Shown piece by piece: positions 3,874-26,602 of a stretch of DNA of 55,101 nucleotides. Made by a program: the position numbers and the translations under genes. This stretch comes from a virus: positions 1 to 55,101 of the IMG/VR virus record IMGVR_UViG_3300023109_000032; one strand, written 5' to 3'. Below the pieces are notes generated by a model. It had not been told where the DNA came from. It made no database searches and was given only the letters and a program-made list of their open reading frames with translations. Position 1 is the stretch's first letter; each line of letters begins with the position of its first letter.

Positions 3874-3874
3874 T

Positions 3875-10978: not shown

Positions 10979-10987
10979 ATATATTAT

Positions 10988-11442: not shown

Positions 11443-11639
11443 AGAAATTTATTAAATTTTTCTTAATTTGGTATAGTCAACAGATGGCCATACCCTTTTG
11501 GGTTATCGGTCATGTGCATTTACATTTTGCTACTTATCATGACTTATATGAATATAGTTTATCGATTTTTTTACACCTAATGGTAGCTATAGGTTTTTGG
11601 ATAGATTGGAAACAGAACGGAAAAAACATTAATAAATGA
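11439..11639 (+). CDS. Small membrane protein, 66 aa
   Basis: Two hydrophobic segments (FIKFFLIWYSQQMAIPFWVIG and SLSIFLHLMVAIGFWI, each listed partly) separated by a His/Tyr-rich loop with HVHLHF. An in-frame ATG at 11430 exists, but the start at 11439 gives the usual ATGA overlap with the preceding ORF. The TGA overlaps the next gene start. Function unknown. Confidence 0.6.
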   Translation: MKKFIKFFLIWYSQQMAIPFWVIGHVHLHFATYHDLYEYSLSIFLHLMVAIGFWIDWKQNGKNINK

Positions 11640-12712
11640 GATTACATATATTAGGAATTGCAAGAAATGCTTCTACTCCAACACTTACGATGGACCCTTA
11701 TGCAATGATTAGTTATTATACAGCAACATATCTGCATAGAGCAGGCCATGAGGTACATTATTATGGTTATAAAGAATCAACAGTAGAATGTACAAAAAAA
11801 TGGGAATGTGGTAATAAAGAGTTTTTAGAAAAATATTACATTACTAAAGGTTTTGAAAAAACACATTGGAAAAATTCAGATGAAGGCTGCGAAATTTTTT
11901 TTAATAAAGCAAAAGATCATTTATTAAAAAATTATAAAGATGGTGATATTATTATATGTAATTGGAGCCCTTCGGTTGATATTTTAAGAAGATCATTTCC
12001 ACATGCTAAAATAGTAGATGGTAATATTAATCACCGTTCACCTTCACCAGCAACTAACTATCATGTACATTCTTCCATAGCTAACCAACATTTTTTATAC
12101 GGTGCAGCTGCTGAAAGAAAAGGTGATTATGATACTGAAGATCATTGGCAAGATACTGTGATATATCCTATGGCTAATGAATTAAATAACTTTATTTATA
12201 AGAAAGATAAAAAAGATTACTTTTTCTTTATGGGTAGGTTAGGTCTTAATAAAGGTATTCATATTCTTAGAGATCTTGCTGCTCATTTTCCAGATAAAAA
12301 ATTTATTATTGCTGGTCAAGGTTCAATGATTATAGATCTTTTACCTAATATGGAATTTGTAGGGTGTTTAAATGGAGAGGAGAAAAAAGAATATCTTTCA
12401 GATGCTAAAGCAATAATATCTCCATCCACTTATAGCGAACCGTTTGGGCTAACACCAGTAGAGGCAGGATTATCAGGTACTCCTACTATTTGTACTGATT
12501 GGGGTGGGTACACTGAAAATGTATTAGACGGCGTTACTGGTTTTAGATGTACTTATTTTAATGATTTTGTAAATGCTATTAACAATATAGAAACTCTTAA
12601 ACCAGAAGATTGTAGAAAATTTAGTGAAAGGTTTGCGGCAGAAACTTTAATAAAGGATTGGGAAAAATATTTAAATAAAATTAATAGAGTAGGCTGGTAT
12701 GATATTGACTAA
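11636..12712 (+). CDS. Glycosyltransferase family 4 (GT-B fold)
   Basis: Cytoplasmic sugar transferase of 358 residues. The C-terminal donor-binding domain has FFFMGRLGLNKGIHIL, IIAGQGS and the hallmark SEPFGLTPVEAGLSGTP with the E-x7-E pair, followed by GYTENVLDGVTGF. The N-terminal acceptor domain (GIARNASTPTL, then YLHRAGHEVHYYG) is typical of GT4. It overlaps the small membrane gene by four bases and closes this operon. Likely acts on host surface polysaccharide or a virion glycan. Confidence 0.88.
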   Translation: MRLHILGIARNASTPTLTMDPYAMISYYTATYLHRAGHEVHYYGYKESTVECTKKWECGNKEFLEKYYITKGFEKTHWKNSDEGCEIFFNKAKDHLLKNYKDGDIIICNWSPSVDILRRSFPHAKIVDGNINHRSPSPATNYHVHSSIANQHFLYGAAAERKGDYDTEDHWQDTVIYPMANELNNFIYKKDKKDYFFFMGRLGLNKGIHILRDLAAHFPDKKFIIAGQGSMIIDLLPNMEFVGCLNGEEKKEYLSDAKAIISPSTYSEPFGLTPVEAGLSGTPTICTDWGGYTENVLDGVTGFRCTYFNDFVNAINNIETLKPEDCRKFSERFAAETLIKDWEKYLNKINRVGWYDID

Positions 12713-12731
12713 AATCTTTCAGAAACCTATA

Positions 12732-12753
12732 TTGTTTGTTATATTTAAATTAA
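12732..12753 (+). promoter_or_regulatory. Promoter of uvsE
   Basis: TTGTTTGTTATATTTAAATT just before the start codon contains the core TTGTTATATTTAAATTAAA that recurs at 37194, and TTCAGAAACC upstream resembles the TTCAGAATC block of the long promoter modules. Inferred promoter. Confidence 0.5.
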
Positions 12754-12763
12754 ATACAAACAT

Positions 12764-13741
12764 ATGAATCCAAACACTCAACTAGGTTATTGCTGTATCA
12801 ATCTAAATTTGCGACAGATACCTATCACCGTTAATCGAACATGCAGAAAAGCAACTTTTGAATCTAACGGATTATCTCATGTAAGTAATCTTGCATTACA
12901 AAACATTAGAGATCTTGTTGAGATTATTAAATGGAATGAAAAGAATGGATTTAAAGTTTATCGCATGTCATCAAACATGTTTCCTTGGATGTCAGAGTAT
13001 GAGCTTAAAGATCTACCTGACTATCAAAAAATATCTACATTACTTAAAGGTGCTGGTACCCTTTCTAAAAAATACGGACAACGCCTCAGTTTCCATCCAG
13101 GACCTTTCAATGTACTAGGATCACCTAATCCAGTACTTGTAACAAAAACAATCAAAGAACTTAATCAAACGGCAGAGATTATGGATATTATGGGATTAGA
13201 ACAGTCTAATCATTATCCTATTAATATTCACTGCAACGGTGTTTATGGAGATAAGAAGGCTACATTACAAAGGTGGTCAGATAATTACAAAAGACTTTCA
13301 AAATCAGCTCAAGCCAGATTGGTTGTAGAGAATGATGATAAGGCAAGTATGTATTCTGTAAAAGATTTGTATGACGGTATCTTTTCTGAAGTACAAGTAC
13401 CTATTACATTTGATTTTCATCATCATAGATTTCAACCAGGTGGTTTATCAGAACAAGAAGCATTTGAATTGGCAATGACTACATGGCACCATCATAATGT
13501 AAAACCTTTGTTTCATTACTCATCATGCCGAAGAACATTCGAGGATCCAGGTTGTAAAGCTCAGGCCCATGCTGATTTTGTATATGAAAAAATTAATGAT
13601 TATGGCCATGCCGTAGATATAGAAGTAGAAGCTAAAGCTAAAGAAGTTGCTGTATTAAAATACAAAGATGATAATAAATTATTAGAATCTTATTTACCTT
13701 TTGATGTACATATAGACAATCAATTAGTATTAGAAGTTTAA
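12764..13741 (+). CDS. uvsE: UV damage endonuclease (UvdE/UvsE family)
   Basis: TIM-barrel endonuclease that nicks 5' to UV photoproducts. Family motifs in order: LGYCCINLNL at the N terminus, YRMSSNMFPW, LSFHPGPF, NIHCNGVYGDK, RLVVENDD, TFDFHHHR and LFHYSS; His, Glu and Asp metal ligands lie in these motifs. Length 325 fits the family. It provides light-independent repair of phage DNA, sensible for a surface-water virus. It has its own promoter. Confidence 0.93.
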   Translation: MNPNTQLGYCCINLNLRQIPITVNRTCRKATFESNGLSHVSNLALQNIRDLVEIIKWNEKNGFKVYRMSSNMFPWMSEYELKDLPDYQKISTLLKGAGTLSKKYGQRLSFHPGPFNVLGSPNPVLVTKTIKELNQTAEIMDIMGLEQSNHYPINIHCNGVYGDKKATLQRWSDNYKRLSKSAQARLVVENDDKASMYSVKDLYDGIFSEVQVPITFDFHHHRFQPGGLSEQEAFELAMTTWHHHNVKPLFHYSSCRRTFEDPGCKAQAHADFVYEKINDYGHAVDIEVEAKAKEVAVLKYKDDNKLLESYLPFDVHIDNQLVLEV

Positions 13742-13755
13742 CTAAAAACAAAAAA

Positions 13756-14046
13756 ATGATTAAAATTGTTAAAGAAAAACCAATTAAAAGTACCACATCT
13801 GTTGAAGGTATATTAGTACAAGTAACAGGGGGACAATGGTACGGAATTACAATATTTAGACCAGCAAGAAATCCTTGGTTAGGTAGGGCAAGTAAGTCAA
13901 CTACCACAGGAAGAATGGAATTTACTGCAGGAAGTGAAACCTTTCAGATGCAGTTTAAAGAAAAACCAAACTTTGAAGAACTAAAGGAAACTTTAGTAAA
14001 TGTATTAAATGGAGCAGAAGCTGTTAAATGTAAAATTTCTTATTAA
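13756..14046 (+). CDS. Hypothetical protein, 96 aa
   Basis: Not recognised. Beta-rich N-terminal half (SVEGILVQVTGGQWYGITIF) and helical C-terminal end; possibly a small nucleic-acid-binding fold. Follows uvsE by 14 bases and its stop overlaps the next ATG. Confidence 0.6.
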   Translation: MIKIVKEKPIKSTTSVEGILVQVTGGQWYGITIFRPARNPWLGRASKSTTTGRMEFTAGSETFQMQFKEKPNFEELKETLVNVLNGAEAVKCKISY

Positions 14047-14210
14047 TGGGAACGATAATGGAAATGTTTGCATGCCTATTTATTATAGGATTAAGTTTTT
14101 TATTTCATTTAATTGTTTATGAAGATGATTGGGTTGAAAAATGGTATTGGAAAGTTTTAGGTGGTGGTGGCATTCTCCTTTTAGTTTTTGCTGCTATACT
14201 AGGTTACTAA
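14046..14210 (+). CDS. Small two-TM membrane protein, 54 aa
   Basis: Starts on the last base of the preceding stop (TAATG). Two hydrophobic segments, FACLFIIGLSFLFHLIV and GGGILLLVFAAILGY, are joined by an acidic/Trp-rich loop (YEDDWVEKWYWK). Function unknown. Confidence 0.6.
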   Translation: MGTIMEMFACLFIIGLSFLFHLIVYEDDWVEKWYWKVLGGGGILLLVFAAILGY

Positions 14211-14217
14211 AAAAACA

Positions 14218-14263
14218 AGAGTTTATAGTTCAGTTTTCAACAAAATAGTTTATATTTATATTA
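14218..14263 (+). promoter_or_regulatory. Phage promoter module (short version)
   Basis: Contains TTTATAGTTCAG and AATAGTTTATATTTATATTA, the two downstream blocks of the recurring promoter module, but lacks the upstream TTGTTAATAAC block. Immediately precedes the ATG at 14265. Confidence 0.55.
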
Positions 14264-14264
14264 T

Positions 14265-14429
14265 ATGAATAACACAATACAATTTTATTTCAACCAGTAT
14301 ATTAAAAGTTATAAAAGCTTTAATCTGGAATTTTCTGAGTTTATTGCAAGTAAACTTGGCTGTACTGAAGCCCATGCAGTACAATTGATTAAAACATGGA
14401 AAGAAAACAAACAACTAATAAACGCATAA
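14265..14429 (+). CDS. Hypothetical protein, 54 aa
   Basis: MNNTIQFYFNQYIKSYKSFN then a helical segment with SKLGCTEAHAVQLIKTW, resembling a small helix-turn-helix-like or helical bundle. It directly follows a promoter module. Function unknown. Confidence 0.55.
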   Translation: MNNTIQFYFNQYIKSYKSFNLEFSEFIASKLGCTEAHAVQLIKTWKENKQLINA

Positions 14430-14430
14430 T

Positions 14431-14619
14431 ATGAAAAAGGTAATAGGTAATTTTATAGTAGAGCTTTCAGGCGAAAGTTTAATGATTAAAAATTCAAAAG
14501 GTGATTTGTTAAAGGCAGATTCTGTTAAGCCATTTGAATCAGAAGATAAATTTAAAGAACTGTGTACCGGTTTAGAAGAAAAAATTGCTGAAAGAAAAAG
14601 ATTAGGCTTAGCAGTATAA
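14431..14619 (+). CDS. Hypothetical protein, 62 aa
   Basis: A short beta-hairpin-like N terminus (GNFIVELSGESLMIKNSKGD) and a charged helix. Starts one base after the previous stop. Not recognised. Confidence 0.55.
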   Translation: MKKVIGNFIVELSGESLMIKNSKGDLLKADSVKPFESEDKFKELCTGLEEKIAERKRLGLAV

Positions 14620-14635
14620 TTAAACATAGTTTCAG

Positions 14636-14714
14636 AATTGTTAATAACTTTTTGAAAATAATATGAAACTATAGTTCAATTCCCAAGAAATTGTATTATA
14701 TTTATAATATAATT
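14636..14714 (+). promoter_or_regulatory. Phage promoter module (full)
   Basis: Full form: AATTGTTAATAACTTTTTG, then AAAATAA, a spacer, ACTATAGTTCAAT, a spacer, and AAATTGTATTATATTTATAA with TATAATT. The leader AACGGAA lies right before the cca ATG. Seven other full copies occur in the window. Confidence 0.75.
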
Positions 14715-14726
14715 AAATAACGGAAA

Positions 14727-15452
14727 ATGGAACATAAAATATTTGAAGTCGGTGGTTGTGTAAGGGACGAAATCTTAGGAGTTCATACAAAAGACATCGA
14801 CTTTACTTTTGTATTAGATAATACTGATATGACAGTAGAAGAAGGGTGGAACAAAATGTTATCTATCCTTGAATCTGAAGGATTCAAAATATTCTTAAAA
14901 ACACCAGACTGTTTTACTGTAAGAGCTATGTTTCCTAAAGGGCATGAGCATGAAGGTTTAGTTGCCGACTTTGTTATGTCTAGGAAAGAAGTAGGAGTTA
15001 TACCTGGAACAAGAAAACCTATATTAGAATTAGGAACTTTAGAGGATGACTTAATGAGAAGGGATTTTACTCTTAATGCCTTATGTAAAGATGAGAATGG
15101 TAATATCATAGATATGTTTAATGGTGTTATAGATTTAAATAATAGAATCCTTAGAACTCCATTACCTCCAATGAAAACTTTAATGGATGATCCTTTAAGA
15201 ATGATAAGAGGTTTAAGATTTTCCATAACCAAAGGTTTTACATTTGATGATGAATTATGGGAATGTATGCAAGAGCCAGGTTTGTTAAGAAAATTAGAAG
15301 ATGTAGTTTCTCAAGAAAGAATCAGAGAAGAAGTTACTAAAATGTTTAAGCATGATACTCTTAAGAGTTTAAATCTTTTAAGAACTATACCTGGATTAAT
15401 GGAAGTTATATTAAAAGATGGGATGTGGTTAATGCCAACAACTAAAAAATAA
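14727..15452 (+). CDS. cca: tRNA nucleotidyltransferase (CCA-adding / PcnB-like)
   Basis: Class II nucleotidyltransferase of 241 residues. Motifs: GGCVRD (9-14), metal-binding DID (23-25) in TKDIDFTFVL, RRDFTLNAL, and DDPLRMIRGLRF, the base- and tRNA-recognising region. It is shorter than cellular CCA enzymes (about 400), lacking most of the C-terminal body and tail domains, like other phage versions. Encoded tRNA genes for Arg, Gln and Pro lack a full CCA in their DNA, so they need such an enzyme. Driven by a full promoter module. Confidence 0.88.
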   Translation: MEHKIFEVGGCVRDEILGVHTKDIDFTFVLDNTDMTVEEGWNKMLSILESEGFKIFLKTPDCFTVRAMFPKGHEHEGLVADFVMSRKEVGVIPGTRKPILELGTLEDDLMRRDFTLNALCKDENGNIIDMFNGVIDLNNRILRTPLPPMKTLMDDPLRMIRGLRFSITKGFTFDDELWECMQEPGLLRKLEDVVSQERIREEVTKMFKHDTLKSLNLLRTIPGLMEVILKDGMWLMPTTKK

Positions 15453-15455
15453 GAT

Positions 15456-15659
15456 ATGAGATATACTGTAACAATGACAATTTATATAGATGCCGAAAAT
15501 GATAAGCATGCAGTTTCAAAAGCTGAGATGATTACCAAAAGAGAACAGATAAAATACCCGGCACAGAGGTGTGAAATGGAGAAACTTCATTGTACTCCAT
15601 TTGCATCTTTACAAACAAGAGAAGTAAATATTAATAAAATTAAGTATGAAGAAGTATAA
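15456..15659 (+). CDS. Hypothetical protein, 67 aa
   Basis: Short alpha/beta protein beginning with a beta strand (MRYTVTMTIYIDA) and a helix (NDKHAVSKAEMI), a layout often seen in small phage proteins. Two Cys in the second half. It overlaps the SWIM-domain gene by 14 bases. Confidence 0.55.
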   Translation: MRYTVTMTIYIDAENDKHAVSKAEMITKREQIKYPAQRCEMEKLHCTPFASLQTREVNINKIKYEEV

Positions 15660-15945
15660 AATAGAATCACATATGAATATTGCTTTTGCAACATTTAACG
15701 GGCAGAAGTATCTATTTCCAGGATGGATTCCTGTAGAGGATCATATATCATTCGATGATGTAGAAGTAATTAATCCTTATGCAAATGTTAAGGTTGAGGA
15801 GTATCAAATAACTGGATCAAGAGGGGATAAATATACTGTTACTAATAGAAATGGTAAATTTTCATGTAATTGCCCAGCTGGCAAATTTAGAGGATATTGT
15901 AAACATTCAAAGCAAGTTCAAAAAGATCTTAGCTTAGTTGAATAA
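15646..15945 (+). CDS. SWIM zinc-finger domain protein
   Basis: The C-terminal part carries CNCPAGKFRGYCKH with Cys74, Cys76, Cys85 and His87: the CxCx(n)CxH signature of SWIM fingers, preceded by the typical YTVTNRNGKFSC strand pair. SWIM domains bind DNA or proteins. The N-terminal 50 residues form an unassigned beta domain with a FPGWIPV segment. The stop codon lies within a candidate late-promoter sequence. Confidence 0.75.
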   Translation: MKKYKIESHMNIAFATFNGQKYLFPGWIPVEDHISFDDVEVINPYANVKVEEYQITGSRGDKYTVTNRNGKFSCNCPAGKFRGYCKHSKQVQKDLSLVE

Positions 15946-15955
15946 ATAAAGAAAA
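15937..15955 (+). promoter_or_regulatory. Candidate late promoter, AATAAATAA type
   Basis: Identical over 19 bases (GTTGAATAAATAAAGAAAA) to the sequence at 2783, the other site where a structural-looking block begins. It overlaps the stop codon of the SWIM gene. Confidence 0.35.
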
Positions 15956-15966
15956 CAAATATAATT

Positions 15967-16320
15967 ATGTTACCATACGGAATAGCTAAAATTGATGTTG
16001 CAACAGTTACTGATGACAGTGTGCAATTTAAAAGAGATACAGATTTAGGAATTAATATGACTCAGCAAAAGGAGGAAATAGTTTTAGGAACTAAAAACAA
16101 AACACAAGGCCCTATTAAGAAATATCCTATTGCAATATTAGTAACTAAAACTGGTGCAACTGCTGCTGCCCCTGAAACAATTACTGTTTTAGATCAAGTA
16201 GGTAATGAGGTTGTTATGGGTGGAATGGTAACTGGTGTAATAAGACCATTTAGTTTCAGTCAAGTACTAGGAGCCGGTACAACCCCTTCAGTTGGAGAAA
16301 TAACTATTTTTTATAGATAG
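15967..16320 (+). CDS. Hypothetical beta-rich protein, possibly structural
   Basis: 117 residues with alternating Val/Thr/Gly strands (ITVLDQVGNEVVMGGMVTGV) and no signal peptide or catalytic motif; reminiscent of small virion decoration or tail proteins, but not recognised. It follows the candidate late promoter and opens the second head-protein block. Confidence 0.6.
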   Translation: MLPYGIAKIDVATVTDDSVQFKRDTDLGINMTQQKEEIVLGTKNKTQGPIKKYPIAILVTKTGATAAAPETITVLDQVGNEVVMGGMVTGVIRPFSFSQVLGAGTTPSVGEITIFYR

Positions 16321-16356
16321 TTAAGTATTTAAATTTAAAAATAAATAAATTAAGTA

Positions 16357-16545
16357 ATGGAAAAAGCAAAAGAATTATTTGGAAAAGTAGTAAGTTGGAT
16401 TGACTCAAAAGGTTTCTCTGCTTTATTATCATTAGGCCTAGGTGCAGGTCTTTGGGTGTTTGGTTACAAGATATATGCTGGAATTGCATTCGGTGTATTC
16501 TTAACTAGAAACTGGGATCTTTTCAGAGGATGGCTAAAGAAGTAA
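16357..16545 (+). CDS. Small membrane protein, 62 aa
   Basis: Amphipathic N terminus (EKAKELFGKVVSWIDSKG) followed by one long or two short hydrophobic segments (SALLSLGLGAGLWVFGYKIY and AGIAFGVFL) and a basic C terminus. Holin-like in size and topology, but there is no lysis cassette next to it. Overlaps the next ORF by 16 bases. Confidence 0.6.
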   Translation: MEKAKELFGKVVSWIDSKGFSALLSLGLGAGLWVFGYKIYAGIAFGVFLTRNWDLFRGWLKK

Positions 16546-16658
16546 TTAAAAGAAAGAATGAATCATCTCAGTTTATTTTTTGTTACTGGGATGATTATTC
16601 TACTTTACCACAAGAAAGAATTAAGAATATTAAAACGAAAACAAAAATAAGAAAATGA
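16530..16658 (+). CDS. Small basic protein, 42 aa
   Basis: MAKEVIKRKNESSQFIFCYW then DDYSTLPQERIKN and a Lys/Thr/Arg tail. It overlaps the preceding gene by 16 bases and its TGA overlaps the next ATG (ATGA); the matching overlaps at both ends support translation. Function unknown. Confidence 0.5.
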   Translation: MAKEVIKRKNESSQFIFCYWDDYSTLPQERIKNIKTKTKIRK

Positions 16659-17539
16659 AATATATTAAAATTTTAGATTTAAACGAAAGTTTAGATGAAA
16701 AAGTAAACGAAGCAGTAAATGCATCAGGCTATATTAAAGCTGGTAAATTAGGTTACAATGATCAATTTTTAGGAAGAAGATCTTTATCATGGACATTATC
16801 AACTGATTTAGGTTTAAAGGCAGCTGATGAATTCGTTGGTCCGTGGTTAGGATTTGATCATGTATCAATGTATGCTATTGGTAAAAAAGGAGGTACTATT
16901 TTAGATGATGCATTAACCAACAAATACACTTATGAAGAACTCAAATCTGCTGCTGCAAAGTATTTAGGGATTAAAGAATCAGCTGATTTAAATGAAGCTA
17001 AATTTGTAAGTTCATATGATACAAAAGTAAATGATGCCGAAACAGAAAAAGACGTTTTAAAAATATACCCAAAGGCTAAATTCTTTACAGGTAAATTAAC
17101 TCACTTCTTTGGAGAACTTGAACCAAATCTTTTCTTTAAAGCTTATTATCCTAAATATTATAAGGAAGATACTGGTAAAACTGTTAAAGGTGATTTTAAA
17201 ATTACTTCAGTCTATTCTGAAAAAGGTAGAAAATATGTTGAGTTAATGAAAGAATCATTAAATGAAGCAAAGAAATTTAAACCAGGTGATAAATGGTCAA
17301 ATGATTTTGATTATGATGGAATGATGAAGTATGCTTTAACGGTGAATCATAAAACTCCACTAAAAACTCTTCAGAAATTACATGATTCTGCAACTGATGT
17401 AAATTACCATACTCCTTTTTCAGGTTTAGGTAATGCAATTGATTGGATAACTGATGATGGTGTTAATTCACAAGAAGGTAAAGACTTTATGAAACAATTT
17501 CATAATGATATTAAATCTGAAATAAAGAAAATGGCATAA
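16655..17539 (+). CDS. Predicted head-packaged polyprotein, three modules
   Basis: Leader MKYIKILDLNESLDEKVNEA contains LNE, LDE and VNEA sites. Further sites LNEA at 112-115 (ESADLNEAKF) and 202-205 (KESLNEAKKF) split the rest into three segments of about 95, 90 and 89 residues, each of which looks like a separate small domain with its own aromatic core. The repeated ES-x-LNEAK context implies one recognition rule. TAATG overlap with the next gene. Inferred to be packaged in the head and cut by the prohead protease into several ejected proteins. Confidence 0.75.
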   Translation: MKYIKILDLNESLDEKVNEAVNASGYIKAGKLGYNDQFLGRRSLSWTLSTDLGLKAADEFVGPWLGFDHVSMYAIGKKGGTILDDALTNKYTYEELKSAAAKYLGIKESADLNEAKFVSSYDTKVNDAETEKDVLKIYPKAKFFTGKLTHFFGELEPNLFFKAYYPKYYKEDTGKTVKGDFKITSVYSEKGRKYVELMKESLNEAKKFKPGDKWSNDFDYDGMMKYALTVNHKTPLKTLQKLHDSATDVNYHTPFSGLGNAIDWITDDGVNSQEGKDFMKQFHNDIKSEIKKMA

Positions 17540-19017
17540 TGAAATATATTAAATTATTTGAAAAGTTCACTAAGGACTATATGAAAAAAATAGACCTTAG
17601 TGATTTTAAGAAAATCAAAAAAGGTTCTAAGATTTTATACATGGGTGGCCAAGTGGAAGTTTTAGATAATAATGGATATGTTCTTAAACTTAAAGGAGAA
17701 GACGGTAGAACCTTTACTATTAATAAATCTCAATTTGATCACGGAGGAATGATTAAAGAAGTATCTGATGGAAAGAAAAAGAAAAAGAAAAAGGAATTCC
17801 ATCCAGATATGATGTATGAGGCTAAAGGCAAAAAGGTTATAAATGATCTTTATAAAATGGATGCTCAAATTGATTATCTTTCTGATGCTGATGATGCAAC
17901 TAAAAAGATATGGAAAAAGGCAGGAGTTAATCCTAATGATGATAATCAAATTATTCTTTACTCATATGTTAATTCATGGCCTGAAACTAAAAAACTTTTA
18001 GACAAATCAAGAATTAAGTATAAAGAATTAGAAGATCCTAATTCTGCAGGTGAATCTTTTATTGTATTTGATGTTAATGAATCAATTAATGAATTAAGAA
18101 CATCACCAGTATCTGGAACAATGGCTGGTTTTACTACATCGTTAGAAGATAGAAAATATGAATTAAAGAAAGATGTTAAAGGCGCTACTATTGGAAACTT
18201 TTCAAATGTAACACTTCCTAAAGGAACTATTATTTATAATTTACCTGGTGGGGTATTTGCAGATCATTTTGCATTAAAACAAAGGTATACGAGTAGATCA
18301 TCACAAGGTCCACAATATTTTGATAAACCAACCTTTAAAGGTATAATGATTAAACAAACACCTGCTGTCTTATCATACATTGAAAAGAACAGTAAAGTTT
18401 TAGAATCATTTGATACAGAAGACGAAGTAATCAATTTTATAGATGGAATAGTTAACGAAGCTAGTGATCAACAAAGATTAACTCATTTAAGAAAATTTGG
18501 AATTGCACCTAATAACCAACCACAGAATGGTGCTTATATAAAACAAGTAGCAAAACCTGGAAAATTCTTCGTGGATTGGAAAGATGCTTTTGATCTAGGT
18601 GATGTTGCATTAGAGTTTGTAAAATCTGTAGGTAGTATTTCTGAGTTTGATATTATTGATCTTAAGACAATGAAACGCACAGGTAAGCAATTAGATGTTA
18701 AGAAAGGTCAATTAGGAAATTTAAGAACTACTTATGGTGTTAGAGTTAATGAATCTCTTAATGAATTATCATCTGCACAAGATGGTACTAAAGATTCTGA
18801 TGGTAAACATAGACATGAACATCATTTAGAAGAAGATATAGAAGCAATGTGGAAAAAAGCCTATGGTGAGAATTTTAGTTCTCAATATCCAGCAGTTGCT
18901 AAAATTATTAAACAAAGAAAGATTAAAGATAAAAGAGAAATTGCTAGAATATGGCAAGATACTTATGGTGAGGATTTTGAAAAAGAATACCCAGCATTAT
19001 TCCAAAAGTTAAGTTAA
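17539..19017 (+). CDS. Predicted head-packaged polyprotein, five modules
   Basis: 492 residues. Leader MKYIKLFEKF, then an SH3/KOW-like beta domain (about 25-70), a lysine run (79-85) and candidate sites MMYEA (91-95), NESINEL (180-186), IVNEA (304-308) and NESLNEL (404-410). The sites delimit modules of about 90, 122 and 101 residues plus an 80-residue end module. The last contains a two-fold helical repeat: MWKKAYGENF...YPAVAKII and IWQDTYGEDF...YPALFQKL. No enzyme motif recognised. One-base overlaps at both ends. Confidence 0.75.
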   Translation: MKYIKLFEKFTKDYMKKIDLSDFKKIKKGSKILYMGGQVEVLDNNGYVLKLKGEDGRTFTINKSQFDHGGMIKEVSDGKKKKKKKEFHPDMMYEAKGKKVINDLYKMDAQIDYLSDADDATKKIWKKAGVNPNDDNQIILYSYVNSWPETKKLLDKSRIKYKELEDPNSAGESFIVFDVNESINELRTSPVSGTMAGFTTSLEDRKYELKKDVKGATIGNFSNVTLPKGTIIYNLPGGVFADHFALKQRYTSRSSQGPQYFDKPTFKGIMIKQTPAVLSYIEKNSKVLESFDTEDEVINFIDGIVNEASDQQRLTHLRKFGIAPNNQPQNGAYIKQVAKPGKFFVDWKDAFDLGDVALEFVKSVGSISEFDIIDLKTMKRTGKQLDVKKGQLGNLRTTYGVRVNESLNELSSAQDGTKDSDGKHRHEHHLEEDIEAMWKKAYGENFSSQYPAVAKIIKQRKIKDKREIARIWQDTYGEDFEKEYPALFQKLS

Positions 19018-19073
19018 TGGCACCATATTTAATTTTTGCTATTATCTTATGCATATTAATAGATACAATATGA
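19017..19073 (+). CDS. Tiny hydrophobic peptide, 18 aa
   Basis: MAPYLIFAIILCILIDTI. It begins on the last base of the preceding stop and its TGA overlaps the ATG at 19070 (ATGA). The exact junctions suggest real translation, at least for coupling; it could also be a minimal membrane peptide. Confidence 0.35.
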   Translation: MAPYLIFAIILCILIDTI

Positions 19074-19396
19074 AATACATTAAACCACTTAACGAAGGAA
19101 GACCTATGTTCCAAGATACTCCTAATGAGTTTGCTTATTTAGATTTTGCAAAGTGGGCATCAAAAAACAAAGGCGATATTAAAAAAGAACTATCCAATAT
19201 TAATGATGGTACTACATTCTTTATAGCACTTAGAAAACTGTGGATGCGTTGGGCTATGAAATATGCAAAGAATTGGAGTTACTTACATTCTACTGCTGTT
19301 GCTAAAAAAGATTTTGGTAGAGCCTTAGCTGTTATGTTAAAGAAAGATAATTTAATAATTAGAAATCAAGGTAATAAATTAACAGATTTAAAATAA
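19070..19396 (+). CDS. Predicted head-packaged protein, 108 aa
   Basis: Start chosen at 19070, giving the leader MKYIKPLNEG with a candidate L-N-E cleavage at 7-9; an upstream in-frame ATG at 19049 would hide this family leader. The body is helical and basic (KLWMRWAMKYAKNWSYLHST). The start overlaps the stop of the tiny ORF. The next gene begins directly after its stop. Confidence 0.65.
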   Translation: MKYIKPLNEGRPMFQDTPNEFAYLDFAKWASKNKGDIKKELSNINDGTTFFIALRKLWMRWAMKYAKNWSYLHSTAVAKKDFGRALAVMLKKDNLIIRNQGNKLTDLK

Positions 19397-19966
19397 ATGA
19401 ATAACATCCCAACATTTAATGAATTTAAAAACCGAAGATTAGTAAATGAAACTTATGATCTTTTAGAAGGGAGTGTAAGTTATGAAGATCTTAATGATGT
19501 TTTAAATGAAGGAATCTTTTCTTTTATTAAGGGTATATTTATGAACCCTTTTCAAAAAAGAAAGTTAAAAAAGTTAGGGGATGAATTATTTAAAATAAAG
19601 GTTCAGATTCAAAAACTAGAAATAGAAGAAAATGATATTGATAGAATGGAGGATGAATTAAAATCAAAAGATTCTAATTATAGTTCGGATTCTTCTATAA
19701 AGAATGCAAAAACCGCCGAAGATAAAAAATTAAAAGCTTTACAGAATAAAGAAGCGATTATAATTGATCAAATGGATACTGTTGCTGGAGATAATCAAAC
19801 TCTAACTAAGTATGTAAATAAGATAAAGCTAGAAATTAGAATGAAGGCAAATGATGCAACTATAAAAATGGCTGATGCCGAAATGAGTAGAATCTTAAAT
19901 AAGATGCAAAAGAAGGATGCTAAAGAAATTAAAGTACTGGATAAAGAATTGGCTAAGGCGGCCTAA
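19397..19966 (+). CDS. Predicted head-packaged coiled-coil protein
   Basis: Leader MNNIPTFNEFKNRRLVNETY, similar to the minus-strand protein that begins MSKIPEFDKFNET. Candidate sites VNE (16-18), LLEG (22-25) and VLNEG (36-40). From residue 50 onward it is a long, charged coiled coil with regular Leu/Ile spacing and many Lys/Glu/Asp. It ends the second head-protein block. Confidence 0.65.
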   Translation: MNNIPTFNEFKNRRLVNETYDLLEGSVSYEDLNDVLNEGIFSFIKGIFMNPFQKRKLKKLGDELFKIKVQIQKLEIEENDIDRMEDELKSKDSNYSSDSSIKNAKTAEDKKLKALQNKEAIIIDQMDTVAGDNQTLTKYVNKIKLEIRMKANDATIKMADAEMSRILNKMQKKDAKEIKVLDKELAKAA

Positions 19967-20222: not shown

Positions 20223-20843
20223 ATGAAAAAGCTCACCTGGTTGTTAGTGTCTTTGTTTTTGCCTTTTGTTGTTTCTTCTCAGTTATGCGATGTTGAATTA
20301 TTAGATATGGATTGGGATGACCAAATTATAACATTAACTTTAAATGATAATGTTTGTTCTAATTCATCTACTCCTAGTTGGGTACCTTACCCTGATTCTG
20401 TGTATGTAGTACAATTAGGATTAAGTTATGGTGGTACGACTTGTACGATAGCTGCTAATTCTACTAATTTTTATCCACCTCTTGGATTAAATGATACTCT
20501 TACTTATACTTTTAGTGATTGGTCAGATCCTTTTGATTGTTTTGCAAATGCATTTACTTATTATCAAGAAACTTGTATAGTTACAGTTTCAGTAGTAGGA
20601 CCTAATAATTCTATTAACTTAGATATGAATAATGGAAATAATTATATAGGCTTTAATCCTGTATGGGATAACTGTTATGGTGTAGCTAATGTTACTGAAT
20701 TAATAAATGCTAATAAGCAGGTAATAGGTGTGTTTGATTTTCTAGGCCGATATATTCAAAAAGATATAATTGGCTTGATTTCTGGGAAATTATATTTAAT
20801 CAAATATAATGATGGCACCATAAAAAAATTACTAGTTACCTAA
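20223..20843 (+). CDS. Secreted protein with short T9SS-like C-terminal domain
   Basis: Sec signal peptide MKKLTWLLVSLFLPFVVSS with Gln at the predicted +1, then LCDVELL. The body is beta-rich with several Cys (possible disulfides) and YGGTT. The last 45 residues (VIGVFDFLGRYIQ ... GKLYLIKYNDGTIKKLLVT) match the end of T9SS type-A sorting domains, in which G-x-Y-x-[IV]-K and a Lys-rich end are conserved. A relative with the same architecture lies at 44644. Predicted to cross the inner membrane by Sec and the outer membrane by host T9SS. First gene of the island. Confidence 0.75.
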   Translation: MKKLTWLLVSLFLPFVVSSQLCDVELLDMDWDDQIITLTLNDNVCSNSSTPSWVPYPDSVYVVQLGLSYGGTTCTIAANSTNFYPPLGLNDTLTYTFSDWSDPFDCFANAFTYYQETCIVTVSVVGPNNSINLDMNNGNNYIGFNPVWDNCYGVANVTELINANKQVIGVFDFLGRYIQKDIIGLISGKLYLIKYNDGTIKKLLVT

Positions 20844-20891
20844 AGCCCTTTGTATTATGTATCTTAGAGTCACCTTTAAGATATATAATAT

Positions 20892-22088
20892 ATGCGATAC
20901 TTCAAATTATTCATCTTATGTTTTATCCTGGCGATGCCTATCGTCCATGCACAAACTACTACAGTAAACTTGAGGTCACTTAAAACTCACTATGGTGGAA
21001 GCCAATCAGGTCAGATGTATTCACAAAATGCTGACAGTCACATAGAATTTGATGCAATGGTTAATCTTGCTGATGCCGGTACTACACTTTATTTAGATAC
21101 AACGGTAGATATAACAAGTTACCAAGGACCAAGAGGTGGTAATCATACTCCTTATCAACTATGGAATCCACCAAGATGGGGTGGAGCTGGTACTCAAAGA
21201 TATGCAATTATCTATACAGGTTGGTTTAAACCTAATAAAACAGGTACATACGGGTTCAGAACATTCACCGATGACTCACATGAGTTTATGATTAAAGGTA
21301 TTGGTAAAACTAATGATATAGTTACTAAACATTATGGGTGGAATACATGGGCTTATGGTACGGCAACACTAAACAAAAATACATGGTATGAGTTTGAATA
21401 TAGAATACAGAATTTTGGTGGTATAGGTGCTGCAAATTTTCAATATAAAATACCAAGTAGTAATACATACAATCAACTTAGTCCTAATCATCCATTTGCA
21501 GAATGGACTTCTACAGATCCTAACGCGGTACCTATCACGGCGAGTGGTTATATTAAAGGAGCAGAAGAACAAGGTATTGCAGGACAAACTGTTTATCTAA
21601 AGACACAAAATAAAAACCAAGTAGGTTTCTCATATACAACACAAGCAACTACAACAACAGATTCAAATGGATATTATTCATTTAATACTATTTTAAATTA
21701 CAACGATTACGATTTTACAATAGACATCACTCCGACAATAGGAACACTTACAACTTCAGATATTAACTGGTTCCAAGATAGATTACTATCAGATACAGTT
21801 AGTTCTAAAGATTACTGGAGACTTGATGTAAATAATACAGGTTCATTTTCTGCCTCTGACATTTATCTAATGCATCAGAAGAGACAAGGTAACATTTCTA
21901 GTTACCCTGGTGGAGGCCAGGAAATATGGACTACAAATTACTGGCAGCAACCTCATGTATGGGATGCCGTTTCAGTAGACATAGATGATAAATCATTGCT
22001 CTCTGGTTACGGAGCATGGTCCCTCTTTGATTTAGCTAATGGAAATCAAACAACTTTCTATGTAATAAGAGCGGGCCATAAAAACTAA
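20892..22088 (+). CDS. Secreted PA14-like plus dockerin-like protein
   Basis: Signal peptide MRYFKLFILCFILAMPIVHA followed by Gln. Residues about 85-215 resemble a PA14 (sugar/adhesion) domain: IIYTGWFKPNKTGTYGFRTF and DDSHEFMIKG. Next comes a carboxypeptidase-regulatory-like beta domain (GYIKGAEEQGIAGQTVYLK ... DSNGYYSF), then a dockerin-like pair of half-repeats: TTSDINWFQDRLL and DVNNTGSFSASDIYLMHQK, the second matching the DxNxDGxxxxxD calcium-loop layout. The end ENG...TTFYVIRAG resembles the next protein's end. Probably an exported adhesin or part of a cell-surface complex. Confidence 0.75.
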   Translation: MRYFKLFILCFILAMPIVHAQTTTVNLRSLKTHYGGSQSGQMYSQNADSHIEFDAMVNLADAGTTLYLDTTVDITSYQGPRGGNHTPYQLWNPPRWGGAGTQRYAIIYTGWFKPNKTGTYGFRTFTDDSHEFMIKGIGKTNDIVTKHYGWNTWAYGTATLNKNTWYEFEYRIQNFGGIGAANFQYKIPSSNTYNQLSPNHPFAEWTSTDPNAVPITASGYIKGAEEQGIAGQTVYLKTQNKNQVGFSYTTQATTTTDSNGYYSFNTILNYNDYDFTIDITPTIGTLTTSDINWFQDRLLSDTVSSKDYWRLDVNNTGSFSASDIYLMHQKRQGNISSYPGGGQEIWTTNYWQQPHVWDAVSVDIDDKSLLSGYGAWSLFDLANGNQTTFYVIRAGHKN

Positions 22089-22105
22089 AAAATAATTAAA
22101 AACAA

Positions 22106-23200
22106 ATGAAACTAAAAAACATTTTTCTAACACTGGCTTTAGCTATCAGTACAACGACGGTCTTCGGCCAGACTACTGCACCTGATGCAACAAAACCTTA
22201 TGTTATTTTTGATTCAACGTACACTTTAGAATCCACTGGTTCTAGTTCAAACACTGAGTTTGATATTTACTATGATAACACATCTGGTAATGCAGTTAAA
22301 GGTATTCAGTTTTCGTTTAATTATGATAACACGGTATTTGATGAACCAACATTAACATATAACAATACATCCGGCCCTGTTGGATATTTGTCGTATGATG
22401 TTGATTCAACAAACGGAGTAGTAAAAGTAGTATGGGTTTATACTGGAGCATCTACCACTTTCGATGTGGTTACTGGTAATATGTTTACAGTAAATGCACC
22501 TTTTCTATCAAATTACACAAACGGAGCAGTTGCTGATGTAGATTTTACTGCTGATCTTACTGCTTATTATGTAAAAGCTGATGGAACAGATGGAGCTCTA
22601 GGCACACAAGATAATGGTGGTAACTTTATAGAACCGGCATTTGATTATGTAGCAACTATCTTAAATAGTGGAACAAATCCAGCTGAATCTATTCCTGTGA
22701 TTTTACAAAAATCATCTGATGGAAATACTTGGGTAGATGTAACTACAGTAACAACGGCTGCTAATGGAACTGCAACATTTTCAGAAAGCTTAGATCAATC
22801 TTACTGGCAAATTAGACTTAAGATTGCAAGTGGATTAGATGCAACTACGGCACTATCAACTGCAGATGCTAATATGATCGCACAAATTGCTGCAGGAGTA
22901 CAATCAGCTTCTGGTATTCAGTTCTATACTGCAAATCCAAATCAAGCTACTGGAATTACAGCATCGGATTCTTATTTAGTATTCTCTAGATTAGCACAAG
23001 GTAACTTAAGTTACGCTTCTAATCCAGATGTATTGTTCTTTACTGAAGCACAATATAATACTATTAATGGTTCTAGTTCAGATCAATCAAGTTCAATTCC
23101 AGGACTATCAGTATTTTTATCTCCACAAATTAATGGAACTACTACCGGTAACTTCTACCTATTAATCTTAGGTGATGCCAACGGTACAGGTTTAAACTAA
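22106..23200 (+). CDS. Secreted cohesin-like plus dockerin-like protein
   Basis: Signal peptide MKLKNIFLTLALAISTTTVFG then Gln, as in its neighbours. Residues about 35-150 resemble a cohesin-type beta sandwich (TEFDIYYDNTSGNAVKGIQF, FNYDNTVFDEPTL, VVKVVWVYTG). A middle beta domain follows, then a dockerin-like duplication: TALSTADANMIAQIAAGV and GITASDSYLVFSRLAQGN. The second half-repeat and the closing FYLLILG parallel the upstream protein (SASDIYLMHQKRQGN, FYVIRAG), so the two share a C-terminal module. It lacks a recognisable T9SS domain. Confidence 0.72.
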   Translation: MKLKNIFLTLALAISTTTVFGQTTAPDATKPYVIFDSTYTLESTGSSSNTEFDIYYDNTSGNAVKGIQFSFNYDNTVFDEPTLTYNNTSGPVGYLSYDVDSTNGVVKVVWVYTGASTTFDVVTGNMFTVNAPFLSNYTNGAVADVDFTADLTAYYVKADGTDGALGTQDNGGNFIEPAFDYVATILNSGTNPAESIPVILQKSSDGNTWVDVTTVTTAANGTATFSESLDQSYWQIRLKIASGLDATTALSTADANMIAQIAAGVQSASGIQFYTANPNQATGITASDSYLVFSRLAQGNLSYASNPDVLFFTEAQYNTINGSSSDQSSSIPGLSVFLSPQINGTTTGNFYLLILGDANGTGLN

Positions 23201-23201
23201 T

Positions 23202-23939
23202 ATGAGGAGTATACTATTAACATTACTGTTATTACTAACAGCAAGCGCTCAGTCTCAGGTCGTATTTAACGTACCTGAGATTGATGTGCCTGTAAGTGAG
23301 TACATTAACTTGCCTGTAGAAATTGAAACTTCAGGCGAAGATGTTGGTAGTCTAGAATTTGCATTGAACTATAATACTGATTTTTTAGAATTTGTATCAA
23401 TAAGTGTTACAGCTAAAGCACAAGAATGGTTAACCTATACTATGGACTGGGAAGGGGAAACTGTTAGGTGGGGTGGTTATGACGCATCTTTTGGTACCTA
23501 TACGATAAGTAACACTACTGAACTATTCACTTTAAGATTTAGAGTCATTAGTCAAGATTGGGATACTATACCTATTACGATTGGTAGAAAAACAGCAGGT
23601 ACAGAATTAGGCTGGGATATTGAAGTTGAAAATACTGATGGGTATGTTAATAAAAGAATGGCATCATTTGACACCAGACCAATGGATGGAATTTATGGGT
23701 TGGTTTATCCAATCCCAACACGAGGTTTGTTAACTTTTGATCTAACTGTACCAGATAATGGTGATTATGAAATCAGAGTAATAAATTATAATGGAGTAGT
23801 ATACAAAAGACTTAAGAAAAGATTCTTTAGTGGATATGTTTCATTCCAAACAGATTTATCTGATTTAGCACAAGGAATTTATTTGTTGCAAGTAACAAAC
23901 GGTGTGTATGTAAAAACATTCAAAATAATAAAGAAATAA
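23202..23939 (+). CDS. Secreted cohesin-like protein with full T9SS type-A sorting domain
   Basis: Signal peptide MRSILLTLLLLLTASAQS with Gln next. Residues 20-150 form a cohesin-like domain (INLPVEIETSGEDVGSLEFA, LNYNTDFLEFVSI, FTLRFRVI). Residues about 168-245 are a textbook T9SS type-A CTD: VYPIPTRGLLTFDL (standing in for YPNPxxGxLxI), YEIRVINYNGVVYK, DLSDLAQGIYLLQV and the terminal VKTFKIIKK. Predicted to be exported by the host T9SS and possibly anchored at the surface. It starts two bases after the previous gene's stop. Confidence 0.82.
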   Translation: MRSILLTLLLLLTASAQSQVVFNVPEIDVPVSEYINLPVEIETSGEDVGSLEFALNYNTDFLEFVSISVTAKAQEWLTYTMDWEGETVRWGGYDASFGTYTISNTTELFTLRFRVISQDWDTIPITIGRKTAGTELGWDIEVENTDGYVNKRMASFDTRPMDGIYGLVYPIPTRGLLTFDLTVPDNGDYEIRVINYNGVVYKRLKKRFFSGYVSFQTDLSDLAQGIYLLQVTNGVYVKTFKIIKK

Positions 23940-23940
23940 G

Positions 23941-24201
23941 ATGGAAGATAAAAAGGGAGGGTTCTTTTCAGAAATTAAGAATCAAATAGTAACTGGGATA
24001 GGTTTAGTTATAACAGCGGCTTTTGGATTATTGATAGCCAATATGCAATCTATATTTGAGCCTAAAGAAGAAAAAGTAGATCCACCTGTCATGGAGCAAA
24101 GAATCAATACACCAAATAATATAAAAGATACTTTGGTAATAACAAAAACAATAGTTATACCTCCTAAGAAAGAAGAAAAAGAAGAAGAGATATCATGGTA
24201 A
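23941..24201 (+). CDS. Single-TM protein with charged Pro/Lys/Glu tail
   Basis: A polar N terminus (MEDKKGGFFSEIKNQ), one membrane segment (VTGIGLVITAAFGLLIANM) and a disordered periplasmic-looking tail ending PPKKEEKEEEISW. The topology is TonB- or spanin-like, without either family's motifs. It overlaps the CsgG-like gene by seven bases, so it may serve the export system. Confidence 0.6.
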   Translation: MEDKKGGFFSEIKNQIVTGIGLVITAAFGLLIANMQSIFEPKEEKVDPPVMEQRINTPNNIKDTLVITKTIVIPPKKEEKEEEISW

Positions 24202-24899
24202 GAATATTTTTAATTGCATTACTTTTATTTAATCTTACGGCTAATGCTCAAATAGGAAAAACTGAAACTGAAGACTATAAGGCTGGCTTTGAACAAAAAT
24301 CAGACATAGATGAGGTATCAGATTATATGTTAGATTATCAATTACCTATTCAAGTTTTAAATATTGGCTTTACTCCAGAATTATATGAGTTCTATCCAGA
24401 GTTAAGAGAGAATCGAGTAGGTCTTGGTGTAAGTAACATTACTTTGTCTTATTTGGAATGGACAGATAGATTTTTATTTACTGAAGATAAAGAAGAAATC
24501 AAACAAAGAATGGTAAAACAACATAAAGCAGCTGCGAAAGGTATATCCGCAAATGATATTAAAGTTGTAGGTAATGTTGTATTGGCAGAGTATTTTGTTT
24601 ATATAGAAATATATGATTATTCTGTATCAGAGGAAGAAGAAGTTACAGTCAGTGGTGTAAAGACAGTTCTTAAAACTATTATCGGTATGCAAGTAAGATT
24701 TGTTAATGCTGAAACAGGAACAATCTTTACAGGAAGTGGGAGCGGTGAAGCAGTTACAATTAAAAGAAGTCAGATTGGTGAAGATAATGAAGTTAAGTTT
24801 AATAAATCAACAATCGGTATTGCAACTAAGAAAGCTTTGGAAACTGCATCAGCTCGTATCATAAAAAGAATGATTAAGCGTGGAATATTTAAAGAATAA
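24195..24899 (+). CDS. CsgG-like curli/outer-membrane secretion protein
   Basis: Signal peptide MVRIFLIALLLFNLTANA plus Gln; no lipobox Cys, unlike E. coli CsgG. The body matches the CsgG/LpoB fold: YFVYIEIYDY, then GMQVRFVNAETGTIFTGSG, and a C-terminal helix ATKKALETASARIIKRM. CsgG forms an outer-membrane channel that secretes curli subunits; csgG-like genes have been noted in marine T4-like phages, but their role there is unknown. The gene sits between the TM gene and the barrel gene with overlaps on both sides. Confidence 0.72.
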   Translation: MVRIFLIALLLFNLTANAQIGKTETEDYKAGFEQKSDIDEVSDYMLDYQLPIQVLNIGFTPELYEFYPELRENRVGLGVSNITLSYLEWTDRFLFTEDKEEIKQRMVKQHKAAAKGISANDIKVVGNVVLAEYFVYIEIYDYSVSEEEEVTVSGVKTVLKTIIGMQVRFVNAETGTIFTGSGSGEAVTIKRSQIGEDNEVKFNKSTIGIATKKALETASARIIKRMIKRGIFKE

Positions 24900-26163
24900 A
24901 ATTTTAATTCTATTACTGTGTTTACCATTTGCTACTTTTGGCCAATGGTCTTATACATTTACAGATCCTTGTACTTTAAATCAACAAACAATCCAAATGG
25001 GTTCCAGTAATTCTATTGCTTTAAATTATTTTGGTAATGTTCAAACATTTACACAGACAGATTTTACAAATGGTACATTTGACTCATGGATGGATTTAGT
25101 AACACAAGCTAATAGTTCATCACCATGTTCAGGTGTAACACAAGTAATTATGAATACCTCAAATACTATTGCTATTCAGAATACTATCTTAGTCGTTACA
25201 AATGTTATGTCAATATTAGGTGGGGAGATGTTACCTAAAGCAATATCTGCATCAGCAGTTCCAGTTGCAGAAGCTATAGATAATGCAGCAGGTGAAGAAG
25301 AGGAAGAAAAAAAGAAAGGTTCATCTAAAAATCAAAATAGTAATAGCACCAGTTCTGAAAATCAAAACAGTACATCAAGTAATGAAAACCAAAGTAGCAG
25401 TGGAGAAGGCAATGGAGGTGGGGAAACTAATGGTGGAGAAGTGACTGAGGAAGAGGAAACTGAAGGCGGTGCAAATTTGTCATTAGCTAATTCTATTTCT
25501 AATGCATTGGACGGTGGAGATGAAGATAATAAAAATAGAGGATCATTAATTGCATCAGGTGATATTATAGTTATTGATAATAGGGATAATTCAAATGGGC
25601 AACAGTTAAAGGTAGTAGGTTCTATTACACGAGCCAATACAAAACAGAGCAGAATTCAAGGTGCTCTTTTTACATACACATCTGTTACTAATGATTTTAG
25701 TTTAACATTTTACAAATCTTGGATTAACCCTAACAAAACTTTTAATTTAGTAGGGGCCAATACAACGATGACTGATTTTAATCAAAATCATTTTAATACC
25801 ACAACAGCTTTAGAATCATGGAAGTGGGGTAAAATTACAGGTATGGCTGGAGCTAACTTTACATTTGGTAAGTTAGGAAAAAGAAATTTACAAAACTTAT
25901 CAGCTGTTACTGGTGCACATAGAAATTTTAGAATAAGTCCAAGGATTACTACTTCAACATTAATACTAGGTGTTTATTCTCCGTTCACTCAATTCTATGA
26001 AGGTAAGTGGTGGGATTCTGGAATTTTGGTAGTTCCATTTAGTTCATGGGATATTAAGATAACAAAAACTTTTAAATATAATATCAGTTTTACAGGCGTT
26101 TGGCATTCTAACGGTAATGCTTTAAATTATCAAATTTTAACCGGTGGTAAAATAAGATTTTAA
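24880..26163 (+). CDS. Exported protein, probable outer-membrane beta-barrel
   Basis: The only plausible start is GTG at 24880, inside the csgG-like gene; it gives a signal peptide (KILILLLCLPFATFG) followed by Gln. Residues about 145-205 are a low-complexity Asn/Ser/Glu/Gly linker. The C-terminal 200 residues alternate polar and aromatic residues in strands (DFSLTFYKSWINPNKTF, WGKITGMAGANFTFGK, YNISFTGVWHSNGNALNYQ) and end in aromatic Phe (KIRF), typical of outer-membrane barrels. It may be the membrane partner of the exporter. Confidence 0.65.
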   Translation: MEYLKNKILILLLCLPFATFGQWSYTFTDPCTLNQQTIQMGSSNSIALNYFGNVQTFTQTDFTNGTFDSWMDLVTQANSSSPCSGVTQVIMNTSNTIAIQNTILVVTNVMSILGGEMLPKAISASAVPVAEAIDNAAGEEEEEKKKGSSKNQNSNSTSSENQNSTSSNENQSSSGEGNGGGETNGGEVTEEEETEGGANLSLANSISNALDGGDEDNKNRGSLIASGDIIVIDNRDNSNGQQLKVVGSITRANTKQSRIQGALFTYTSVTNDFSLTFYKSWINPNKTFNLVGANTTMTDFNQNHFNTTTALESWKWGKITGMAGANFTFGKLGKRNLQNLSAVTGAHRNFRISPRITTSTLILGVYSPFTQFYEGKWWDSGILVVPFSSWDIKITKTFKYNISFTGVWHSNGNALNYQILTGGKIRF

Positions 26164-26164
26164 T

Positions 26165-26602
26165 ATGAAGAATTTAATTATAACATTAATGTTTTTACCT
26201 ATGCTTTCTTTTTCACAGGAATGTTATACTGTGGCTAAAGTAGGTACACACGTAGAGATGGAAGAAATGAGTAAGAACCGTATTGTTTTCGGAATTAAGC
26301 AAATGGTTGAAGATATTATTTCAGACAAGTATGAATTATGCATGGATGGCAAACCTGTAATAATAGTAGTGAAATCAATCGAAGCTCCAACAACTGGAAT
26401 TGAATTAGGCCCATGGACTAAAGTAAGTAAAAAAACTATTGTGAAGTTACTAATCTATATGGATGGTAAAGAAATTGCAGTAGAAGGAAAAGCTAAATCA
26501 ACAGTTGAGGCAACATTCATAGATCTTAATAATGATAAATTAGACTTTAATAAAACTACATTTTCATCAGCAGTTAAGAAAGCAATCGAAAAAGCTCTTT
26601 AA
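26165..26602 (+). CDS. Small exported protein linked to the CsgG-like gene
   Basis: Signal peptide MKNLIITLMFLPMLSFS plus Gln, then ECYTVAKVG. The body is alpha/beta, ending in STVEATFIDLNN and FSSAVKKAIEKAL, a layout recalling the last strand and helix of CsgG/LpoB-fold proteins, so it may be a distant relative or partner of the gene at 24195. Two cysteines. Last gene of the island. Confidence 0.6.
   Translation: MKNLIITLMFLPMLSFSQECYTVAKVGTHVEMEEMSKNRIVFGIKQMVEDIISDKYELCMDGKPVIIVVKSIEAPTTGIELGPWTKVSKKTIVKLLIYMDGKEIAVEGKAKSTVEATFIDLNNDKLDFNKTTFSSAVKKAIEKAL

Follow-up and report, generated by a model that had tools for sequence, protein, structure and literature searches.

A seven-gene cassette of T4-like Bacteroidota phages predicted to display an exchangeable sugar-binding protein on the infected cell

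Genes for surface assemblies have precedents in phage genomes. Type VIII secretion (curli) clusters are carried by pelagiphages and by the Methylophilales phage Melnitz, and roles in adhesion, exclusion or lysis have been proposed for them (PMC7029224, PMC9599517, PMC9004378). For the CsgG protein of Melnitz, a pore or envelope role such as timed lysis or nutrient uptake was suggested (PMC9004378), and curli genes have also been reported from a T4-like virus infecting marine Bacteroidetes (PMC7198788). Cryophage is reported to have genes with type A tails of the type IX secretion system (T9SS), including one for a PA14 protein, among its variable genes (PMC7468147). Here, a cassette of seven genes (g2 to g8, positions 20892-26602) is described from IMG/VR virus record IMGVR_UViG_3300023109_000032, a stretch of 55,101 nucleotides that was analysed as a whole and is called the window below. 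Judged from its sequence, this cassette probably serves to place a carbohydrate-binding protein on the surface of the infected cell, with anchoring via the host T9SS. No published description of a phage cohesin/dockerin/lectin unit was found in the open-licence literature, in agreement with the first-pass annotation of the window, which had considered the assembly undescribed as a unit.

The predicted scaffold consists of an anchor, an adaptor and a tip protein (Table 1). In g4, the anchor, a cohesin domain (PF00963, 3.8e-9, 37.3 bits against a cut-off of 24.1) and a T9SS type A tail (TIGR04183, 4.9e-10, 39.2 against 23 bits; PF18962, 1.7e-8, 35.0 against 27 bits) were detected above the curated cut-offs, which bears out both the cohesin-like and the full T9SS sorting domain noticed earlier by reading the translation. 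Together with a signal peptide recognised by rule, the sorting domain gives g4 the sequence features of a T9SS type A cargo. The adaptor g3 is fused to g4 in a single open reading frame (ORF) of ~630 residues in 62 of the 94 loci with a readable state, and this fusion suggests that the separate g3 and g4 proteins act together. Towards scaffoldin cohesins in the PDB, the N-terminal part of g3 reached E-values of 0.08-0.1 only.

The C-terminal part of g3 and the foot of g2 are one module (hhalign 99.5%, E = 5e-23). The foot of g2 contains a dockerin-like loop, DVNNTGSFSASD, at amino acids 312-323, and its pattern D-x-N-x-x-G/N-...-D, as in dockerins, is found in 26 of the 27 g2 relatives listed, the exception being a mis-assigned fused g3-g4 protein. 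The foot has one loop only, compared to the two calcium loops that define Dockerin type I. For the corresponding family PF00404, g2 of the window had no match, and the best match among 61 relatives, in one protein, was at 2.6e-4. In these 61 relatives, Pfam recognised heads of four types, namely Lectin_C (38), LamG_3 (Laminin_G_3; 11), PA14 (2) and GEVED (2). The head of the window's g2 has no PA14 (PF07691) match of its own. By profile comparison, it aligns to the head of one relative, L027 (E = 2.6e-8), which itself has a PA14 match above the cut-off (1.1e-6), and the PA14-like domain seen at first pass could thus be located in g2. From these comparisons, g2 is a constant dockerin-like foot with an exchangeable, predicted sugar-binding head.

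Table 1. Cassette genes and inferred cassette extent, in coordinates of the window
Feature	Position	Strand	Description
g2, exported tip protein	20892..22088	+	signal peptide, PA14-like head, immunoglobulin (Ig)/prealbumin-like domain, dockerin-like foot
g3, exported adaptor	22106..23200	+	cohesin-like N-terminal region (weak), Ig/transthyretin-like domain, dockerin-like foot with degenerate loop, conserved GDANGTG C-terminus
g4, surface anchor (predicted)	23202..23939	+	signal peptide, cohesin domain, T9SS type A C-terminal sorting domain
g5, small protein	23941..24201	+	one hydrophobic segment, charged Pro/Lys/Glu tail, 7 bp overlap with g6
g6, most conserved exported cassette protein	24195..24899	+	possible CsgG-type fold (periplasmic/outer-membrane)
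g7, outer-membrane protein (predicted)	24880..26163	+	signal peptide, small N-terminal domain (YTFTDPC), low-complexity linker, predicted C-terminal 12-strand beta-barrel
g8, small exported protein	26165..26602	+	C-terminal half like that of g6
Inferred cassette extent	20816..26597	+	stretch absent from sister contigs L146 and L147

The first-pass annotation had reported an island of eight genes starting at 20223, and all eight ORFs are present at the positions given, but the eight genes do not form one unit. A protein search with the gene at 20223-20843 identified three sister phage contigs (L146, L147 and L148; 77-87% identity). In L146 and L147, its homologue is directly followed by a homologue of the gene at 26791, the right-hand neighbour of the island in the window. 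Comparison by blastn showed that homology of the window to these two contigs ends at 20815 and restarts at 26598; in each of them, the two blocks are separated by only 18 bp. In L148, the seven cassette genes are likewise absent after the homologue. Since the sister contigs carry 20223-20843 without the other seven genes, this gene was assigned to the phage backbone and placed outside the unit. As contigs with both flanks lack g2 to g8, the cassette can be present or absent at that site, and its ~5.8 kb behave, by this comparison, as an accessory unit of the phage genome. Gain and loss are both compatible with this polymorphism, and the short sister contigs could derive from genomes with the cassette elsewhere.

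A hairpin is located 3' of the last cassette gene. In the sister contigs, it follows the homologue of 20223-20843, and this suggests that the cassette has been placed between a gene and its terminator. In other carriers, ~30 ORF families adjoin the cassette upstream and 27 downstream, numbers obtained mechanically and possibly inflated by spurious ORFs; this diversity of flanks fits a mobile unit. No known RNA elements were found near the cassette, a promoter scan gave no more sites than shuffled sequences, and the T4-like late promoter TATAAATA was searched for upstream and not found. A T9SS tail on the backbone gene 20223-20843 was considered and rejected: Pfam and NCBIfam scans gave no tail match even at an E-value of 1, and the one resemblance seen, a short one, is to the tail of 44644-45177. 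The latter gene, far from the cassette, encodes another exported protein, whose short tail is T9SS-like (35% over 48 residues to that of 20223-20843).

Signal peptides were assigned with a custom rule rather than SignalP, based on a positive N-region, a hydrophobic stretch and small residues at the cleavage site. This rule is satisfied by seven of the eight island genes, as proposed earlier, compared to 4 of the 74 other genes of the window that were considered (hypergeometric P = 6.6e-7). The remaining gene, g5, is the membrane protein gene that had been seen to overlap the next gene; it is short, with one hydrophobic segment, and in the loci listed, g4 and g6 are separated by a short ORF with such a segment. 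In the Pfam and NCBIfam scans of the window proteins themselves, g2, g3, g6, g7 and g8 passed no curated cut-off.

The outer-membrane barrel predicted at first pass was recovered by structural modelling of g7. In the AlphaFold2 (AF2) model, 12 antiparallel strands span residues 221-424, most with a predicted local distance difference test (pLDDT) value of ~60-80, while the whole model has a value of 56. All top Foldseek matches are barrels, including NanC/KdgM porins, autotransporter barrels and FapF, and the protein ends in a C-terminal F, as expected from a predicted outer-membrane beta-barrel. Two more specific assignments of g7 were rejected, namely as a PorP/SprF barrel of the T9SS (no Pfam or NCBIfam match) and as CsgF (a marginal similarity at the N-terminus, E = 0.0097). 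Over its C-terminal half, g8 matches the g6 profile (hhalign probability 67%, E = 5e-5). An assignment of g8 as CsgE (E = 0.19 only) was not retained, and a match of its profile positions 33-81 to the RIxxGIKQ region of ribosomal protein S1 (E = 9e-5) was judged probably coincidental, g8 being exported.

Searching for the same gene order in other Bacteroidetes phages, as had been recommended, revealed it in many Bacteroidota phages. A search with the single g6 protein yielded 37 viral loci, and a profile search yielded at least 320 confirmed related contigs, 80 of which were kept for the locus set. The g2 foot, g3, g4, g6, g7 and g8 are all present in 79 of the 99 non-duplicate carrier loci. 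Of the remaining 20, most are cut off by the end of their contig; L087 is without g2 although the rest is present. A gene for the T4-type capsid protein gp23 was found in all seven large carriers tested, 48-98 kb from g6, and by these sequence markers the carriers are large T4-like phages of Bacteroidota. Among 395 sampled genomes of the class of the one metagenome-assembled genome (MAG) with a g6 match, g6 was found in that MAG and in none of the 394 others, and the MAG contig looks like phage sequence because it also has gp23.

The best named relative is Flavobacterium phage immuto (Immutovirus, MW353175; host Flavobacterium sp. LMO8), which carries the whole cassette at 10527-16409, among replication genes and away from the structural region, with its genes deposited mostly as hypothetical proteins. 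Its g2 has a C-type lectin head, in contrast to the PA14-like head of the window. Gene order and linkage are kept across contigs with capsid proteins as low as 26-27% identical to that of immuto. The g6 proteins of immuto and L030 share 73% identity while their capsid proteins share 27%, compared to 62% and 70%, respectively, for immuto and L018. This mismatch hints at an exchange between lineages, a pattern that is not seen for g4. Pairwise dN/dS (the ratio of non-synonymous to synonymous substitution rates) of the cassette genes is ~0.05-0.22 where dS is unsaturated, and therefore the cassette genes are under purifying selection.

Further genes were observed in or near the cassette of single carriers. 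A secreted non-specific endonuclease is encoded directly upstream of g2 in immuto (L002; 9935-10513, PF01223, 1.1e-25) and in L035 (5191-5769, assigned by its near-identical N-terminus only). In two distant carriers, an extra signal-peptide gene, barrel-like by eye, is located between cassette genes (L035, 11232-12020; L040, 13507-14328). Surface-glycan genes of the window include two glycosyltransferase genes (11636, 30155) and one for a nucleotide-sugar epimerase/dehydratase (27237), and a SIS-domain sugar-phosphate isomerase and a cytidylyltransferase resembling CMP-KDO synthetase (KDO, 3-deoxy-D-manno-octulosonic acid) are adjacent at 18-1372 (PF01380, PF02348).

The island had first been read as parts of a surface assembly. 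With its start moved to 20892, this reading is retained, since one conserved phage unit combines exported proteins for adhesion, for interaction and for the outer membrane. We infer that the genes are expressed during infection and that all cassette proteins except the small membrane protein g5 would reach the periplasm via the Sec pathway. The host T9SS would then export g4 by its type A tail, and g4, anchored at the cell surface, would present its cohesin. The adaptor g3, which some two thirds of the loci encode as a fusion with g4, would be seated on g4, and g2 would dock by its dockerin-like foot and present its exchangeable head. The genes g5 to g8 may encode a dedicated envelope apparatus, consisting of a membrane protein, a possible CsgG-type protein, the 12-strand barrel and a small partner. 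It could help the parts without a T9SS tail, namely g2 and unfused g3, to cross the outer membrane, or hold them there. The likeliest benefit would be an altered adhesiveness of the infected cell to neighbouring cells, polysaccharide or particles, with receptor masking against other phages nearly as plausible. A more far-reaching proposal is put forward only tentatively: a new envelope system, in which a mobile cassette with its own outer-membrane apparatus and the host T9SS builds a cohesin/dockerin scaffold with exchangeable sugar-binding heads on infected cells and thereby decides their sticking or phage susceptibility.

Several observations weigh against surface display as set out here. 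No known sorting signal is present in g2, and the type of its carbohydrate-binding head does not separate adhesion from receptor masking. The earlier suggestion of a dockerin-like module stands for g2 with its calcium-loop foot, but in g3 of the window the loop is degenerate, as it is where g3 is a separate gene; it is intact in five of the fused forms listed (L030, L032-L034, L038). The suggestion of a CsgG-like exporter found weak support in g6. Its AF2 model is poor (pLDDT 52.6), and the top PDB match of this model in Foldseek is CsgG (4uv2, E = 5.6e-4), a fold match of low confidence. Among viral models, ERF/RAD52-like proteins are the top named matches, with scores similar to CsgG; a recombination protein is disfavoured because g6 has a signal peptide. 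At the sequence level, g6 matches neither the Pfam (PF03783) nor the PHROG family of CsgG, and the comparison with CsgG profiles gave a 23-column match (probability 9.7%, E = 0.0033). The window's g6 has no lipobox cysteine, which the CsgG lipoprotein signal requires, while LLSC/LFSC-like stretches occur in a few relatives (L032, L034). By its model, g6 is possibly CsgG-like.

The same display could have superinfection exclusion as its purpose, in which case the heads would bind and cover glycans or receptors on the surface, or keep out competing phages. The variety of heads is what an arms race would give, and the carriers encode glycan-modifying genes, such as glycosyltransferases in immuto and KDO and sugar-nucleotide genes in the window. 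These glycan genes and the secreted nuclease beside the cassette of immuto and L035 keep exclusion well in play, yet no tie between heads and phage receptors was seen and the nuclease adjoins the cassette in only some carriers, so that we regard exclusion as possible but somewhat doubtful. Exchangeable sugar-binding heads are also typical of phage receptor-binding proteins, and the products could in principle be virion parts, either a tail tip or capsid decorations. Such a role appears very unlikely given the Sec signals throughout, the T9SS tail on g4, the outer-membrane barrel, the absence of the cassette from this site in sister phages, and its location, which is distant from gp23 in the large carriers and, in immuto, lies among replication genes.

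The fold resemblance of g6 to CsgG, the g7 barrel and a published precedent (PMC9004378) would also agree with g5 to g8 being chiefly a pore or envelope device for timed lysis or nutrient uptake, as proposed for the CsgG of Melnitz, with g2 to g4 as passengers. This is unlikely, as g2 to g4 accompany g6 to g8 on complete contigs except for L087, g6 fails the CsgG sequence tests and no link to lysis genes was seen. That the first gene of the reported island proved unrelated to the rest might point to a chance run of unrelated small secreted genes of host origin, but an order and linkage kept down to such low capsid identities makes this explanation hardly credible. Display of a sugar-binding protein via g4 and the host T9SS is the reading we prefer.

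Phages are usually viewed as changing the infected cell from the inside. If display is correct, a widespread cassette, with at least 320 related contigs, whose scaffold stays constant while its sugar-binding heads are exchanged would mean that phages also reprogram the outer contacts of the cell. This could affect aggregation, particle attachment and phage-phage competition in Bacteroidota, and the sticking partners of a dying cell, or its susceptibility to other viruses, could change. The idea is testable, as the cassette is present in a phage in culture, immuto, with Flavobacterium sp. LMO8 as host. In addition, heads that can be swapped on a shared foot may offer natural tools for binding glycans and for surface display.

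Apart from the cassette, about ten proteins of the window (2815-6086, 16655-19966 and, on the minus strand, 45657-46581) begin with a motif like MKxIxxFxxFxxSL..E, also seen in L040. These N-termini resemble those by which internal proteins of T4 are targeted to the capsid, and the proteins are possibly a large set packaged in the head. By reading the sequence, genes for a ClpA/B-like ATPase and a ClpP-like protease were noticed near each other at 7927-10978, with a methylglyoxal-synthase-like gene in between. A UV-endonuclease UvdE (PF03851, 2.3e-57) is encoded at 12764-13741, here in a phage.

Compared to the systems described so far, the cassette shares with phage curli clusters that both are accessory surface-assembly genes in T4-like marine phages near replication genes, the cluster of HTVC008M lying close after the gene for the single-stranded DNA-binding protein, and a CsgG-type protein may be common to both. 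The curli clusters contain clear CsgG and CsgF proteins, which E. coli CsgG finds at 37-40% identity, and curlin-repeat proteins, whereas a CsgG of the cassette is unrecognisable by sequence and the cassette has cohesin/dockerin/lectin cargo with a T9SS tail and a 12-strand barrel. With the CsgE and CsgF partners not found, the cassette fails the defining sequence tests of a type VIII system; neither family was found in 60 genomes of the class of genome G001. FapF, the amyloid exporter of Pseudomonas, resembles g7 in layout, with an N-terminal domain, a linker and a 12-strand barrel, and is among the fold matches, but other 12-strand barrels score better.

Cellulosome-type scaffolds likewise combine an anchoring cohesin, an adaptor and a dockerin-bearing tip with a sugar-binding module. 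Unlike these, the cassette is phage-borne and has no enzymes, a T9SS tail replaces the known cellulosome anchors, and the dockerin is below the Pfam cut-off with one intact loop. The T9SS cargo of Cryophage is similar in its phage-borne type A tails and its PA14 protein; it consists of single enzymes or a PA14 protein, each with its own tail, and the accessible part of its description contains no cohesin/dockerin scaffold or dedicated envelope genes (PMC7468147). The parts of the cassette thus have precedents in phage curli genes and phage T9SS cargo, to which it adds a cohesin/dockerin-like scaffold and a dedicated barrel.

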